A stretch of 41,562 nt of DNA from a virus: positions 1 through 41,562 of IMG/VR virus record IMGVR_UViG_3300050133_000061. One strand, written 5' to 3'. A program made the translations under genes and the position numbers. A model generated the notes under the pieces. It did no database searches. It worked only from the letters and a program-made list of their open reading frames with translations, and was not told the origin of the DNA. Shown here one piece after another: positions 4,901 through 12,121 of the stretch (positions are counted from its first letter, which is position 1; each line of letters begins with the position of its first letter).

Positions 4901-5458
4901 TCACGGCGTCACCCGCTTGAACTCGACGCCTGGCGCCAAGTAGCTCCGGTTGTAAATGATGGATTCGATGGTGCTTACGCTCACGCCAAACTCGGCCGCG
5001 AGATCCTTGACGCGCGCGCCGGCTCTCCGCCTTGTGCGAATCGCCACAGCTTGGCCACCGGTCAATTTGGCGCCGTGATGATTGCTCCCGCCGAGATACG
5101 TGCCGTGTCGTTTTCGATCCTCGGCGTTTTCAGTATTGGTGCCGTACTTCAGGTTTTCGGAGGAGTTGTCTGAGGACACCCCGTTCAAGTGTCGAACTAC
5201 CAAGCCATCTGGGCATGCGCCGTGAAAAGCATCCGCCACCAGCTGATGAACTCCGATAGGTCGAGACTTCCCGTTAGGCAGCATGACCGACGCGGTCTTG
5301 TAGCCCTTGCTGGTAGTCTGCTGCGCGAGCTCATACATAAAGGCAGGGTCAATGGTGGAAACTGATCCACGCTGAGCCCCTTGTCCGCGACGGCGGTGGG
5401 AAAACACTCGGCCATCATTGGTTGCTGAGTATCCGGGGAATGAAGGACACGGTTTCAT
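4901..5458 (-). CDS. NUMOD4/HNH homing-type endonuclease
   Basis: The N-terminus (residues 5-20, [14 protein letters not shown]) is a NUMOD4-type segment. It is followed by an HNH core: H71 in [13 protein letters not shown]90 in GLVVRHLNG, then N102 in [13 protein letters not shown]. The C-terminal residues 130-172 form a resolvase-like helix-turn-helix ([19 protein letters not shown]), the usual DNA-recognition module of these enzymes. Such free-standing endonucleases cut related phage genomes lacking the gene and so spread themselves. The start at 5458 has GGAGGG upstream and overlaps the end of the preceding gene by 4 bp (ATGA), so translation is probably coupled. The gene looks intact. 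Confidence 0.88.
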
Positions 5459-6180
5459 TGCTCGACCCTCCGAAATGAAACGCACCAGACCCACGGGTTG
5501 GCGTCCCAGTCACCGCCGGTGGCGTTCCACAAGTTGGCGAATGCAAAGCGCGGTGTGAAAAGGCATTGTTCGTGGCTTGTGGTTTTGTCCCATGCCCATC
5601 CGTTGCGCTGCTGGTGGCCTACCTGAGCCGGGCAATCACCGACATCTTTCCAACCTTCGCCACCGTGGAAGCACTGCTGGCCGTAGTCGGTGAAGAAGCA
5701 GCCCTCGGCCTTGGCCTGGTCGTCGCTGATGTCCTGCAACCGCTCGACGCGCACGTCGGTGATCTCCAGCAGGATGCGGCTGGCCCAGCGCGGCATGTGG
5801 ATGCTTGGCTTCCAGGTTGGCTGCTCCTGCTCGTACGGCGCCAGGCCGTCGGCGCCGTAGACCAGCGTCCCGTCCTCGAGCGCTTCACGGATGTCCAGGT
5901 CATCCGGTTTGAGGTAGGGGCCGCGCATCACTTCGAAGTGATCGCAGTACCAGGTCTCGCGCACCCACAGCCGGTCGCCGGGCTTGCCGTAAGGGCATCT
6001 AATTTTTCCGTATGCGGGACCTTTGGTGAACAGATGCTGGCCATCTTTTTCCAGACCCTGATAGCTGGTGCCTCGCTCAAGATCTTTGACCGGCCGCCGC
6101 GTGACCGTCTTCCGGCCTTCCAGGATGGCGCGCACCATCGGCGCCGAGAACAGGATGGGGCGTTCTTTGATTGCGGTCAT
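5455..6180 (-). CDS. ASCH/PUA-like phage protein
   Basis: The N-terminus [22 protein letters not shown] resembles ASCH-type (PUA-like) proteins found in many temperate phages, where the conserved GRKTVTRR stretch and later [10 protein letters not shown] are typical. These folds are thought to bind RNA or modified nucleotides; some annotations call relatives morphogenetic proteins without good evidence. The C-terminal part is rich in Trp and ends [12 protein letters not shown]. It overlaps the HNH gene by 4 bp. Family placement is from memory of the motif; function is unknown. Confidence 0.7.
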
Positions 6181-6545: not shown

Positions 6546-7439
6546 CTAGGCGTTGATGCGGGTGAATTCTTCGAGGCAGGCGTCAGTGATCTCGTAGAGC
6601 CGGGCCTCCTGGTCAACAACGGGCACAAAGTCGTCGTCCGACATTGTGCCGACTGACCAAGCGTTCCAGACCCTGGTGCAGTCGTAGGTGTCGCCGCCGA
6701 TGGCCTGGGCGATTATGTCGCGGAGGGTGTCGCGGTCTGGCAGCACTGCCGCTACAGGTGCTGGCTGCGCCCGATAAAGCTCGCAATGACCATCTTCTGC
6801 GCACAATTCCTGATCCTCGTCAGCGATCAGCAACATTGCGCCAGCCCAAAGCTCGGAAGTTCCGCCCTCAAGAATCCATTCAGGGACCAGGCCGCCGTCG
6901 CCATCGTCCCGTAATACTCCAACTGCAGTAAATGCCACCGGATCGGCCTGGGGTTGGGTGGCTGGCTGGCAGTCGGGACAATCTTTCACGAGCTCGATTG
7001 GCCCATTTTCGTAAGGTATGCCACCAGCCGAGCATTGCAGGGCGCCGTCACTTACAAGGCGCGTGCCACTGCAGGATTTGCAATTGTTTGCGGGGGCCTG
7101 AGCAGTTTGAAGCGCGCAAAGAATGCTCGCTGCGTGGCTTTCGTGCAGGCCGTAGCCGAGTCGATTCATCTCGTTGGCAATAATTCCAACCAACCCTGAA
7201 TCCCCTTTCTGGTGCGTTGGCGGCCGCTCGTGCGCTGGGTTTTTCGCATAAAAACCTGTGTCGTACCCAGCCTGCCATGCGCGATTGAGCGCTGACGCAG
7301 GGTCAGCGGGTGCGTCCAGCAGCGCGCGAATCACTGTCGCTTTGTGCCCATCAGGCTGGATGCCCAGCAGGTGGCAAAGGCGTAGCGAGAGTTCGAGAAA
7401 ATCACGCGGCACGCCGTCGATAGTTTGTTTATCGGTCAT
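6546..7439 (-). CDS. hypothetical phage protein with zinc-ribbon motif
   Basis: The 297-residue protein has a helical N-terminal part, then a CxxC...CxxC pair (CKSCSGTRL near residue 118 and CPDCQ near 153) that could bind zinc. A C-terminal region, including LPDRDTLRDIIAQAIGG, resembles small modules seen repeatedly in Pseudomonas phage early proteins. It starts with ATG overlapping the previous stop by 4 bp, indicating translational coupling. It probably arose by fusing several small phage modules. Function is unknown. Confidence 0.7.
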   Translation of the reverse strand: MTDKQTIDGVPRDFLELSLRLCHLLGIQPDGHKATVIRALLDAPADPASALNRAWQAGYDTGFYAKNPAHERPPTHQKGDSGLVGIIANEMNRLGYGLHESHAASILCALQTAQAPANNCKSCSGTRLVSDGALQCSAGGIPYENGPIELVKDCPDCQPATQPQADPVAFTAVGVLRDDGDGGLVPEWILEGGTSELWAGAMLLIADEDQELCAEDGHCELYRAQPAPVAAVLPDRDTLRDIIAQAIGGDTYDCTRVWNAWSVGTMSDDDFVPVVDQEARLYEITDACLEEFTRINA

Positions 7440-7954
7440 TGTTGCTCACCATCACGCTGCATCATGTAGGCCAGCTGTTCGTTGGTTGGACTGGCAGTGG
7501 CAAATCGGCTTCGAACCGATTGGTGCCATTCACAAAAAAGGGTGCCAGGCGTGCGTGGGTCAGTGCAGCCGATGGCGGCACATGGATCTCCACCAGCGTC
7601 TGCCGGCCTGAATACGCCCAAAAATTCACGCATTTCTTTGAGCACCTGGTCATGTTCAAGGTCGTTCGGCGCAATGTCTTCGTGGTATTGGATTTCGGTG
7701 TCGAAGTTGGCGACGTAGCGCTGAACGAGTGATGTTGCTGTATCAGCTCGCTGCTCAGCGGCGGTGAGGCGCTGTTGCAGTTCGTCTGCGCGCGCCGCCT
7801 CCAGTCGCTTACCGCGCTCCAGGCCCATGGCGTACGCGGTATCCTGGAACACCATCAGGTCATCGGAGAGTCGCTCTACCTTGCCCACGTACTGCTGGTG
7901 CAGGCGCTCAATGGCATCGTGATCGTCGGGATGATTTCGGTTTTCTGTGGGCAT
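7436..7954 (-). CDS. hypothetical coiled-coil phage protein
   Basis: Start MPTENRNHPDDHD is set by an AAGGA site; the longer open frame to 8134 runs through the methyltransferase 3' end and is not used. Residues 15-110 are helical with heptad-like spacing (LHQQYVGKVERLSDDLMVF, LQQRLTAAEQRADTA), probably a coiled coil. A later Cys/His stretch (CAAIGCTDPRT...FCEWH) may bind zinc. It overlaps the following gene by 4 bp. No known function. Confidence 0.7.
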   Translation of the reverse strand: MPTENRNHPDDHDAIERLHQQYVGKVERLSDDLMVFQDTAYAMGLERGKRLEAARADELQQRLTAAEQRADTATSLVQRYVANFDTEIQYHEDIAPNDLEHDQVLKEMREFLGVFRPADAGGDPCAAIGCTDPRTPGTLFCEWHQSVRSRFATASPTNEQLAYMMQRDGEQQ

Positions 7955-7997
7955 GGATAATCCTTGCCGGGCCAGGCCCGGCAGTGGTGTGGTGAAC

Positions 7998-10295
7998 TTA
8001 GGCGGCTCGAGCCTGGCGCTCTTCTGCTCGCCATGGATCGTTGGCATTCGCGATAGCCGCCATGGGCGGTGGGCTGACGCTGTTACCGCACATGTGCACC
8101 TGCTGGGTGATGGTGAAGGGCTGGCCGTCGGCACCGTGGCTGATGATGTAGCTCGCCGGAAAGCCCTGCGCCTTGTACAGCTCGGGCGGTTTCAGCATTC
8201 GCAGGCAGATATCGACGATCACGTACGGCGTTCCCTGCACCATCACCGTGACCAGTGCCAGGCGATCTTTGGTGGTGATCGTCGGCGCTGGTGCGTCGCA
8301 GGCGCTGGTGTTTTCGGTGCCGTAGTAGCTGATCAGAAAGGCGGCAACGCGCAGTGCTCCGGCCTCATGCTCTGGCGAGAGTTTGAGCGAAACCACCGAG
8401 CTTTTTCCGCCGCCGCCGGCCGTGATGGTCGGCGCTGGCTCTTCCAGGCCCTGGCCCACGCTACCGCCGAATGCACGCTCCATGAATGCGCTGACTAAAC
8501 CGTGGTGCTGGCCGCCGGCGCTGATGGTGTGCAGAGGGTCGTTCGCGTCCCGGGCATCACAGTTTCCTCGCATGTGCACCAGGTGCGCGGTCGTCAGGGC
8601 GTGGTGCTGACCGGTCGTCACGGTCGGCACAGGGCTATCCAGGTCGGTTGGTGCGTGGCCGGAGGTATTCGTGACCAAGGTAGCCGTCATCAACTGTTGC
8701 TGGCTGCCGGTGTTGGTTACCGTTGTCATCGGTTCGCGAATGTCCTTGGCGTGCACGGTGTTGAACCCGCCGTTTGCCTGGATCATCACCGCAGTGCTGA
8801 CAGACTGACCGCCGCCGCTGGCGGTGACGGTGCCGACCGGACCACAAATATCATTCACCCCATGGGATCGACGCTTGTTCGCCCCCGAGCCTTCACCGTG
8901 TCCGGCCTGGACCATGCACGCCGAAGCGACCGCACGGTGGCTTCGAGTCATGACAGTGCCGACGGGTTGGTCCGCAGCTACCGGGTGTCCGGCATATACC
9001 GGCCCCCCAGCACCTACCAAAACTGAGCTGGTCAGGGCGTGCTTGACGCCGCCGGCGACCACTGTCCCCAGCGGTTTATCCAGGCCTGGCACTCTCGGCT
9101 CCTGGCCCTGGCGCTCGCCATAGCCCGATTGAATCAGCGTTGGGCTGATCAGCGTCAGCTCGCCGCGGTTCGCGCACGTCACCGTGGGCAGCGGGGCGAG
9201 TGGGTCGTTGATTCGGTCGCTGCCCTGGTGCGTGGCCGGCGCGATAATTGGGCTGACCACCGAGAAGGCTCCGCCCTTCGGGTAGGAGGTGATGGTGCGC
9301 AGCGGCTCATCTGCTGACTGCACTGTATGCCCTGACCAGTTTGCTATCGGCACGATGAACGGCGCGGGGTTGTCGATGACGAATTTCTTCATGCCCTTGG
9401 CAACGCGGCGCAGGGTAGCGTCGGCCAAGTCTTTCTTGCGGCCGAAAATGCTTTTGCCCAAGTCGCTGAAGTCGATGCAGTCGGCGGCCGTTTTCCACTT
9501 CTGCTGGCCTTTAACGGGGTTCTTTGCATGGGTTGGCTCAGGCCACACCACCGGACGCCCGTCGCACCGGGCGATCATAAATAGTCGCTCCCGGCTGGTT
9601 GGCGCGCCGAAGTCGCACGCCCTGATCACCTTCCATTCCACGACGTAACCCATGCCTTCCAGCAGGGCCACGAACCGGCGCCAGGTGCGGCCGCGGTGTT
9701 TGGGGTCAGGCACCAGGAACTGATTGGAGACCGGTACTCGTTCACCGGGTGCAGCCACACGGTTAATGGTCTTGCCCGCTTTGGTGGGGTGCGGTACCTG
9801 ATCCAGGGTCACCACTCGCCCGGTGGCGCTGTCCCGTTTAGCGATCAGGCGGCCCCACTGCAGGATCTGTTTCACGTTCTCCAGGCTGATCACCCGGGGC
9901 CGCTTCATGCCCGCCCATTTGAGGCCGATCCACGACAGGTTGCGGATCTCTCGTTTGCGCGGTTGACCGCCGGCCGCCTGGCTGTGGTGAGTGCAATCCG
10001 GCGACATATGGAACCAGCCCACGGCCTTGCCGCCGCATTCGGTGTCCGGATCACCCTCGAACACGTCGGTGGTGAAGTGCTGGGCGCCTGGGTGGTTCAT
10101 CGTGTGCATGCTGATGGCTTTCGGGCTGTGGTTCTTTGCCACATTCACCGCGCGGCCTAGGCCCATTTCCAGGCCGGTGCCGGCGCCGCCGCCACCACAG
10201 AAGAAGTCGACCACGATTTCATCATCTTGTGGGCTGAAGCCCAGGCCATACTGCGTTTTGAAATCAGAGGGTTGCTGTTTCAATCGTGCGGACAT
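7998..10295 (-). CDS. DNA cytosine-C5 methyltransferase with repeat-bearing middle region
   Basis: This 765-residue protein transfers a methyl group from S-adenosylmethionine to C5 of cytosine in DNA. Motif I is FFCGGGGAGTGLEMG (from residue 31), the catalytic Cys is C101 in MSPDCTHHS, motif VI is ENV (139-141), AQGFP is near 709 and motif X is GNSVSPP (737-743). Between about residues 311 and 684, in the place of the target-recognition domain, are about ten imperfect copies of a 30-40-residue unit of the form P-x-x-T(V/I)T...(H)AL...LV. The start at 10295 follows GAGGAT. Phage enzymes of this type usually protect phage DNA from host restriction. No cognate endonuclease is visible, so it is probably an orphan enzyme. 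Confidence 0.93.
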   Translation of the reverse strand: MSARLKQQPSDFKTQYGLGFSPQDDEIVVDFFCGGGGAGTGLEMGLGRAVNVAKNHSPKAISMHTMNHPGAQHFTTDVFEGDPDTECGGKAVGWFHMSPDCTHHSQAAGGQPRKREIRNLSWIGLKWAGMKRPRVISLENVKQILQWGRLIAKRDSATGRVVTLDQVPHPTKAGKTINRVAAPGERVPVSNQFLVPDPKHRGRTWRRFVALLEGMGYVVEWKVIRACDFGAPTSRERLFMIARCDGRPVVWPEPTHAKNPVKGQQKWKTAADCIDFSDLGKSIFGRKKDLADATLRRVAKGMKKFVIDNPAPFIVPIANWSGHTVQSADEPLRTITSYPKGGAFSVVSPIIAPATHQGSDRINDPLAPLPTVTCANRGELTLISPTLIQSGYGERQGQEPRVPGLDKPLGTVVAGGVKHALTSSVLVGAGGPVYAGHPVAADQPVGTVMTRSHRAVASACMVQAGHGEGSGANKRRSHGVNDICGPVGTVTASGGGQSVSTAVMIQANGGFNTVHAKDIREPMTTVTNTGSQQQLMTATLVTNTSGHAPTDLDSPVPTVTTGQHHALTTAHLVHMRGNCDARDANDPLHTISAGGQHHGLVSAFMERAFGGSVGQGLEEPAPTITAGGGGKSSVVSLKLSPEHEAGALRVAAFLISYYGTENTSACDAPAPTITTKDRLALVTVMVQGTPYVIVDICLRMLKPPELYKAQGFPASYIISHGADGQPFTITQQVHMCGNSVSPPPMAAIANANDPWRAEERQARAA
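8244..9365 (-). repeat. tandem protein repeats in the methyltransferase
   Basis: About ten degenerate repeats, 32-43 residues each, are encoded here (residues about 311-684). Each carries a core such as PVPTVTTG, PVGTVTAS, PAPTITAG or PMTTVTNT, followed by a short polar turn, a segment like HHALTTAHLV, and a variable loop with GHG or GG. The core is conserved; the loops differ in length and sequence. Repeat borders are my visual estimate. Confidence 0.75.
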
Positions 10296-10336: not shown

Positions 10337-11194
10337 TCAGTCGCCGCAGAAGCAATCGATTGCCACGTCGTGTTCGGCGAACATATCGAACTGTGTATCC
10401 GAGTAGTCGAGCATCTGCTGGTAGCTGGGCCGGTCGCTGCGGAAGCGGGCGCCGTCGCCGGTGAACTTGCCGCCCGACACAACTGAGCTTTCCATGCGTG
10501 CCCACCACTCGGCCTTGGGCCGGTCGCTGGCGATGATTGAATAGATCTGCTTAGCACCCTTCAGGAAGCAAAGATCGCAGTTGCCTTCCAGCGTCCTGCC
10601 GTTGATTGTCGGTAGCATCAGATCGAATGGTTGTCCTGCCCAGAAGTCCGTAACGTCCTGCACACCGACTCCGGCGTCAGCCAGCGGCATCACCATCGTG
10701 GCCCACTTGCTTTCGCTGGTGCTTTTGCGGTGCCGGATCTTCACGACGCGGCGCGGCTCATCGGCACGGATGCCTGTCATCATGTCCACCGGCGCTTCCT
10801 CGGTCGAAAGGCCCAAGCTGCGCAGGTACTTGTGGATGATGCGGATCTTCAGGTCGATGGTGCAGAACCTGGTCACAGGGTTGGGCAGGTACTTGCGTTT
10901 GCGGATCAGGGCTTCGAACGGTTCGCCCTGTCGGCTGGCGGTGGCGTAATCCACCACCGCAAACCCTGTGTCATCGTCGCGAAACTCCAGCCAAACAATC
11001 GGCACCGTCCAGTGCTCGGCACACTCACGGACGAACTCCAGGGTGGCCGGGTGTTCCTTCCCGGTATTGGCGAAGGTGATGACCAGATCGCTCAAGTCTT
11101 CGTTGTTGTCCAGCACCTGGCGCAGCATATAGGCGCTGGTGCGGCCGCCGGAAAAGCTGACGACCGTCGTCCCGGACAATTTGTAGGGAGACAT
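10337..11194 (-). CDS. PAPS-reductase-family PP-loop ATPase
   Basis: The N-terminus has a PP-loop, SFSGGRTSAYM (residues 13-23), typical of adenine-nucleotide alpha-hydrolases of the phosphoadenosine-phosphosulfate reductase family. Cysteines C111, C206, C209, C281 and C283 (FCTIDLK, NCDLCF, DCFCGD) could hold an iron-sulfur cluster, as in the DNA-sulfur protein DndC, a distant relative. The substrate is not known: it could modify a nucleotide, nucleic acid or sulfur carrier. It lies 41 bp upstream of the methyltransferase in the same operon and shares a 17-bp leader with it, suggesting matched expression. The 285-residue length is typical of the phage members. Confidence 0.88.
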   Translation of the reverse strand: MSPYKLSGTTVVSFSGGRTSAYMLRQVLDNNEDLSDLVITFANTGKEHPATLEFVRECAEHWTVPIVWLEFRDDDTGFAVVDYATASRQGEPFEALIRKRKYLPNPVTRFCTIDLKIRIIHKYLRSLGLSTEEAPVDMMTGIRADEPRRVVKIRHRKSTSESKWATMVMPLADAGVGVQDVTDFWAGQPFDLMLPTINGRTLEGNCDLCFLKGAKQIYSIIASDRPKAEWWARMESSVVSGGKFTGDGARFRSDRPSYQQMLDYSDTQFDMFAEHDVAIDCFCGD

Positions 11195-11518: not shown

Positions 11519-12121
11519 TCAAGCGGTGAGACGTTCGCCAATCACCGTGGTGGTGAACTGAATTGTGTACTCGGTGACAAGTTCGAACTCGCCGCCGCAG
11601 GTGTCGCAGGTCATTTTCTTGTCGCCGTAATCTTCAGACTCGATGTGGATGACCGTGGCGCAATGCGGGCATTTGCATTCGTCCTGGCTGCGATAGTCCC
11701 ACTCGTCATATTCGGTCTCGGCGACCTTGGCCAGCGCTTCGGCCTTAGCAGCGGCGTCTTCTGCGTCCTGACAAGGCTTACAGGTGAACCCGTCAGGATG
11801 GCCCCACGGTGTTTCCGTGAGCTTCGAGCGGTGAGTGCTGCACAGGCGGCAAACGTTGTGCTTGTCGCACACCGAGTAGCTGTACTTCTCACCTGTTCCG
11901 TTGCATTTAGCGCAGCCGGATACCCAGTACCAAGCGCCATCGATACGCTCGGCGTACAGGCCGTTTTCCGGGGGCCGCAGGCTGACTTCAGGCAGGTCAG
12001 TAGTGGTACGGTGAAATCGGTGATGATCCGCCCCGTTCCACACGTTGAGGCTGCCGTTACGCTGGCGCTGGGTCCACTCACCCGGGATCTCCGGGATCAG
12101 GATCTTGGTGTTCTTGTCCAT
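11519..12121 (-). CDS. hypothetical phage protein with zinc ribbons
   Basis: The 200-residue protein has several CxxC pairs: CAKCNGTG (DnaJ-like knuckle), CRLCSTH, CKPCQD, CPHC and CDTCGG, enough for two or three zinc sites. The last pair lies in a ribbon of the form CPHCATVIHIE...MTCDTCGGEF. Such proteins often bind nucleic acid or protein partners. AGGGAGAG precedes the ATG. It sits 12 bp after the neighbouring early gene, so the two are probably in one operon. Function is unknown. Confidence 0.72.
   Translation of the reverse strand: MDKNTKILIPEIPGEWTQRQRNGSLNVWNGADHHRFHRTTTDLPEVSLRPPENGLYAERIDGAWYWVSGCAKCNGTGEKYSYSVCDKHNVCRLCSTHRSKLTETPWGHPDGFTCKPCQDAEDAAAKAEALAKVAETEYDEWDYRSQDECKCPHCATVIHIESEDYGDKKMTCDTCGGEFELVTEYTIQFTTTVIGERLTA

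Follow-up and report, generated by a model that had tools for sequence, protein, structure and literature searches.

Why would a phage DNA (cytosine-5) methyltransferase carry ten short tandem units between two of its catalytic motifs, and what could such an array recognize? The question is raised by a single virus record of 41,562 bases, referred to here as the window. The window contains genes for an integrase, a CI-like repressor, an anti-repressor (Ant), a terminase and a major head protein; given the presence of the integrase, the CI-like repressor and Ant, the phage was considered temperate. Beside the integrase lies a gene (113-2692) for an 859-amino-acid protein with a full-length match to PHROG 8439. 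The start of the methyltransferase gene was picked by aligning relatives; an alternative, longer frame has a GTG start and runs from 10508. The gene and its catalytic motifs are as follows.

7998..10295, minus strand: DNA (cytosine-5) methyltransferase gene, 765 aa, ATG at 10295, stop at 7998; PF00145 (1.5e-23), PHROG 23072 and 116
10173..10211, minus strand: motif I, VDFFCGGGGAGTG, residues 29-41; alignment of relatives
9993..10004, minus strand: motif IV, SPDC, which includes the catalytic Cys, residues 98-101; invariant in alignments of relatives
9873..9881, minus strand: motif VI, ENV, residues 139-141; invariant in alignments of relatives
9579..9593, minus strand: motif VIII, RERLF, residues 235-239; alignment of relatives
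8157..8201, minus strand: motif IX, RMLKPPELYKAQGFP, residues 699-713; alignment of relatives
8067..8087, minus strand: motif X, GNSVSPP, residues 737-743; alignment of relatives

Motifs I, IV (with its Cys), VI, VIII (with RxR), IX and X thus occur in order on a Rossmann-type core, the arrangement of a C5-methyltransferase. The preliminary description had called the catalytic motifs complete, and all six are present, but motif IV reads SPDC rather than PPC. This is a property of the family: in an alignment whose rows came from viral contigs only, motif IV is SP[DE]C, with Asp or Glu preceding the catalytic Cys where the usual PPC has Pro. The catalytic Cys, ENV, RxR and motifs IX and X are invariant, or almost so, over diverse relatives. 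In a fold comparison, the well-predicted core of the window enzyme matched M.HhaI, M.HaeIII and DNMT1. Against the NCBIfam dcm model, the window protein (P0001) scored 64.6, below the cut-off of 100.65.

The array occupies residues 311-684 (window 8244-9365, minus strand), between motifs VIII and IX. Its units are 32-50 residues long, and each is made up of a variable loop and a conserved P-x-x-T-[VI]-T hairpin. They are listed here with their module types, beginning with type C, which took the first position in 116 of the 117 relatives having it.

9258..9365, minus strand: unit 1, type C, position-fixed first, residues 311-346
9138..9257, minus strand: unit 2, type F, residues 347-386
9033..9137, minus strand: unit 3, type A, residues 387-421
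8928..9032, minus strand: unit 4, type N, residues 422-456
8793..8927, minus strand: unit 5, type P, residues 457-501
8685..8792, minus strand: unit 6, type B, residues 502-537
8589..8684, minus strand: unit 7, type S, residues 538-569
8490..8588, minus strand: unit 8, type H, residues 570-602
8394..8489, minus strand: unit 9, type G, residues 603-634
8244..8393, minus strand: unit 10, type E, position-fixed last, residues 635-684; the stretch that lines up with the final recognition domain of M.phi3TI and M.SPRI

The motif P-x-x-T-[VI] was found ten times in residues 311-684, as opposed to an expected 0.37 and a maximum of 4 in 5,000 shuffles, and nowhere else in the 765-amino-acid protein. 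A unit HMM trained only on relatives whose core was less than 55% identical recovered exactly ten units in the window enzyme, scoring 15-45 bits each, whereas only 3 of 500 shuffled copies of the enzyme had any match of at least 3 bits. Across the family, 2,512 unit matches were counted in 358 relatives and a single match in shuffled copies. By motif count and by HMM, therefore, the earlier estimate of about ten tandem repeats at 8244-9365 was right in its coordinates, and the number is exactly ten. The units had also been described as degenerate, in agreement with their strong divergence and with a DNA-level search, which returned no tandem repeat family spanning them but only short chance-like matches. 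A recent tandem duplication was therefore rejected as the origin of the array, and since the units cannot be recognized as repeats in DNA, the array is old.

AlphaFold modeled the core of the window enzyme well, with pLDDT falling below 50 across residues 299-665; for a relative with four units, whose alignment was deeper, the core was again good and pLDDT was about 35-57 over most of the array. A comparison of the unit profile with solved structures returned no methyltransferase match.

We then considered how the array varies. Relatives were drawn from viral contigs, bacterial genomes, phage records (276 records) and plasmids (230 records); the loci are the best-scoring 80 per scan, which makes the sample uneven. 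Their hosts or phages include Pseudomonas, Burkholderia, Xanthomonas, E. coli, Klebsiella, Acinetobacter, Rhizobium, Caulobacter, Bacillota, and Gordonia or Mycobacterium phages. The 352 parsed relatives among those sampled contained 1 to 12 units per protein, with a mode of 7; some had only 2-4, and the longest array belonged to L383 (12 units). The single recognition domain of constant size that marks the orthologues of a monospecific C5-methyltransferase is thus not a feature of this family. The preliminary description had proposed comparing repeat number among relatives and held that an unchanging number would speak against its reading; the observed range excludes such constancy.

Even on nearly constant cores the arrays differ. 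The 104 relatives whose core shares 80% or more identity with that of the window enzyme carry 33 different arrays, most of which draw on a single, limited set of module types. DNA alignments reveal clean in-frame gaps of one module: 96 bp in L005 and L007, which lack module S; 105 bp in L003, which lacks N; and 117 bp, with ambiguous precise edges, in L002, which lacks A. Relatives that share a constant core thus either have or lack whole modules, as do enzymes of the SPR/phi3T type. On the core tree, modules A and N required at least 30 and at least 32 changes, respectively, versus 32.2 and 33.7 for shuffled labels, and so track the tree hardly better than chance; the counts for P, Q and S were 21, 25 and 18, versus 34.8, 32.6 and 25.2. 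Module turnover is thus much faster than core divergence, although some of it may be only apparent, where the core itself has recombined and blurred the tree. Module order is not fixed either: under coarse typing, 112 module pairs occurred three or more times, and 59 of them were found both ways round. Arrays, gaps and tree changes all bear out the earlier suggestion that the repeats recombine. A separate observation concerns Pseudomonas aylmerensis S1E40, in which contigs L335, L336, L355 and L356 all break inside the methyltransferase gene, near residues 48 and 345; a pair of prophages with an identical core and different arrays, collapsed in assembly, would leave such a pattern.

Arrays also avoid redundancy. 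Among 687 middle units from 151 dereplicated proteins, not one module type was repeated within an array, whereas about 30 repeats were expected and the minimum over 1,000 permutations was 13; because this null ignores shared ancestry, it serves as a guide and not as a probability. Coarse typing, with 44 types, yielded 2 repeats versus about 80 expected. Module typing depends on the threshold chosen, and the results were stable at four thresholds. Homologous deletion is not a likely cause of the missing repeats at the coarse level, where similarity between units is too low. Redundant specificities would be lost, in line with the absence of repeats. Repeats would be expected in an array that had grown by duplication, as they would in a TALE-like reader with its few base-specific unit types; the lack of any repeated type thus speaks against such a code and favors a separate specificity for each module.

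Individual module types are conserved across distant cores. In distant pairs, the type A module was 67% identical and the core 49%, with the module higher in 145 of 146 pairs; this type was seen in 204 sampled relatives, at core identities down to 43%. Among the types with enough distant pairs for comparison, the same held for R (71 versus 48%), U (65 versus 54%), N (58 versus 48%) and J (62 versus 49%), with type L as an exception based on three pairs. Raw loop identities within and between proteins differed little, and the informative test was the one based on types. On these results, the units look like individual SPECIFICITIES.

In our judgment, the window enzyme is probably an orphan, multispecific, anti-restriction C5-methyltransferase with about 8-10 recognition modules, which are exchanged between phages. 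By sequence it is an enzyme of the multispecific type, with an unusually long, modular and nonredundant array. One catalytic core would serve about ten target-recognition modules placed between motifs VIII and IX, the first and last of them position-fixed and the eight in the middle acting as cassettes, each about 32-45 residues long, that can be exchanged. The loop of each module would enter the DNA major groove in front of the enzyme's only active site, with targets handled singly, a mode of docking proposed for the Bacillus enzymes. If each module docks a different short site, several motifs would be methylated, and the phage DNA would be shielded against a number of host restriction enzymes. 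When modules are gained, lost or swapped in frame among related phages, the set of sites would change with them. The array, its modular makeup and exchange, its lack of redundancy and the conserved core are seen in the sequences; one site per module, the methylation itself and the benefit against restriction are parts of this scheme that we infer.

The neighborhood of the gene bears on the orphan status of the enzyme. The following adjacent genes were tested.

7436-8134, 6546-7439, 5455-6180, 10337-11194 and 11519-12121: tested neighbors, hypothetical, ASCH-like or PAPS-reductase-like

No cognate restriction endonuclease was recognized among these five genes, which fits an orphan anti-restriction enzyme. 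An HNH-type gene at 4901-5494 is similar to phage HNH endonucleases. The upstream gene, 10337-11194, encodes a PAPS-reductase-like ATP pyrophosphatase whose nearest relative in the defense library is SspD (5.8e-16). Similar genes also sit next to the methyltransferase in phages Eeyore, phiC725A and RR1-A; as a conserved partner of the methyltransferase the gene was rejected, being present at only 22 of 114 loci. In Escherichia phage Eeyore (L082, 2680-4014), the gene annotated as a PAPS reductase has a full match to the phage N6-adenine methyltransferase model (TIGR01712, 1.5e-60) and is a probable fusion of PAPS reductase and N6-adenine methyltransferase adjoining the cytosine methyltransferase. 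Gene 5455-6180 is ASCH/YqfB-like (a weak Pfam ASCH match, PHROG 874), and its relatives are found at 22 of 114 methyltransferase loci; Roseburia phage Jekyll also has one close to its methyltransferase.

The same array could be read in other ways. Its units might jointly form one extended DNA-reading surface, as in TALE or PUF proteins, that recognizes one long site or confers broad affinity; the tandem arrangement and the variable loops on a constant hairpin are what such a surface would have, and a repeat-built DNA reader had been put forward in the preliminary description. A base-by-base code, however, would reuse a few unit types along the array, and none was repeated in any array (0 repeats in 687 middle units). 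Modules are, moreover, freely removed, inserted and reordered among close relatives, and their types are conserved singly across distant cores, so that we regard the extended surface as very unlikely. The alternative of several recognition modules, raised at the same time, is strongly supported by discrete cassettes that are gained, lost and reordered, that distant phages conserve and that no protein carries twice.

It is also improbable that only one or two modules are at work, for instance the position-fixed first and last, in an otherwise conventional enzyme whose middle units are inert or silent spacers. The fixed positions of these two units and the relatives with few units would suit such an enzyme, as would the silent recognition domains that occur in Bacillus enzymes. 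Yet the middle modules A, N, R and U are conserved above the catalytic core in distant pairs, and arrays avoid redundancy; neither conservation nor nonredundancy is expected of filler. Lastly, the modules might bind partners other than DNA targets, for example proteins such as the restriction enzymes of the host, or the PDC sequence might make the enzyme dead, leaving the array as a decoy or scaffold. The change from Pro to Asp in motif IV is the reason to consider this, but the catalytic residues and motifs listed above are retained across diverse relatives and the array lies at the exact site of C5-methyltransferase recognition domains, which together make a decoy or a dead enzyme highly improbable.

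A multispecific enzyme with exchangeable modules, which we prefer, can be extended to the phage population at large. Here our opinion is evenly divided: a pool of more than 100 modules of ~35 residues, each with its own site, may constitute a phage-wide combinatorial code, in which nonrepeating sets of up to about ten specificities are re-assorted nearly independently of the core. Such a code would go far above the 2-4 specificities of the Bacillus phage enzymes. If each module does have its own target, the hundreds of natural arrays, with single-module differences on near-identical cores, are a ready decoding set. A handful of phage methylomes could then assign motifs to modules and supply a set of small cytosine-recognition modules for use as portable tools. 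It would also follow that temperate phages match the diversity of host restriction through nonredundant cassettes gathered in one gene.

Bacillus phage methyltransferases contain several target recognition domains per polypeptide and thereby modify several sequences (PMC12707154, PMC8936443). The enzymes of the SPbeta group of Bacillus phages (M.SPRI, M.phi3TI, M.rho11SI and M.H2I), together with M.BssHII, are the known systems closest to the window enzyme. The preliminary description makes no reference to this precedent. Like it, the Bacillus phage enzymes are orphan C5-methyltransferases of temperate phages with tandem domains between motifs VIII and IX. The recognition domains of the SPR and phi3T enzymes are about 40 amino acids each, and the window protein has ten tandem units of 32-50 amino acids in the same interval, which would be its recognition domains. 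In phi3T, SPR, SPbetaL3 and an Alicyclobacillus phage, the methyltransferase gene combines a constant core with whole domains that are present or absent, and most of these domains share with the window units a T-[LIV] hairpin (PTLTT, HTLSAS, FTVNT).

When profiles of a diverse part of the window family and of the Bacillus enzymes were compared, the result was a probability of 98.2 and an E value of 4.7e-14 for the whole alignment, with the last unit (EPLxTVxxxDRxGL) falling on the last Bacillus domain (EPAFTVNTIDRHGVA). On M.SPRI and M.phi3TI, the unit profile matched at recognition domains only. The match to the last M.SPRI domain was weak, at 7.1 bits, and the other domains scored about zero; none of 250 M.SPRI shuffles reached 3 bits. 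SPR and phi3T have the target GGCC in common, and the last domain, which they share, is the one for GGCC. That the last unit of the window enzyme may read GGCC is a lead.

The window enzyme is a member of PHROG 23072 and PHROG 116, with those of Pseudomonas phages F116 and phiC725A, among others; these families are annotated only as "DNA methyltransferase," and their array, exchange and nonredundancy are undescribed in the literature searched. Type I HsdS is similar in that recombinational swapping of its recognition domains alters methylation specificity, but HsdS is a subunit of its own that contains two large half-site domains and serves adenine methylation, whereas the window enzyme has many small modules within the catalytic chain. 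From the Bacillus phage enzymes the window enzyme differs in its core lineage, as indicated by the SPDC form of motif IV and the score below the dcm cut-off, and in its targets, which are proven for the Bacillus enzymes and putative here. It differs, too, in the length of the array, which runs to 8-12 units in the window family as opposed to 2-4 in the Bacillus phage enzymes.
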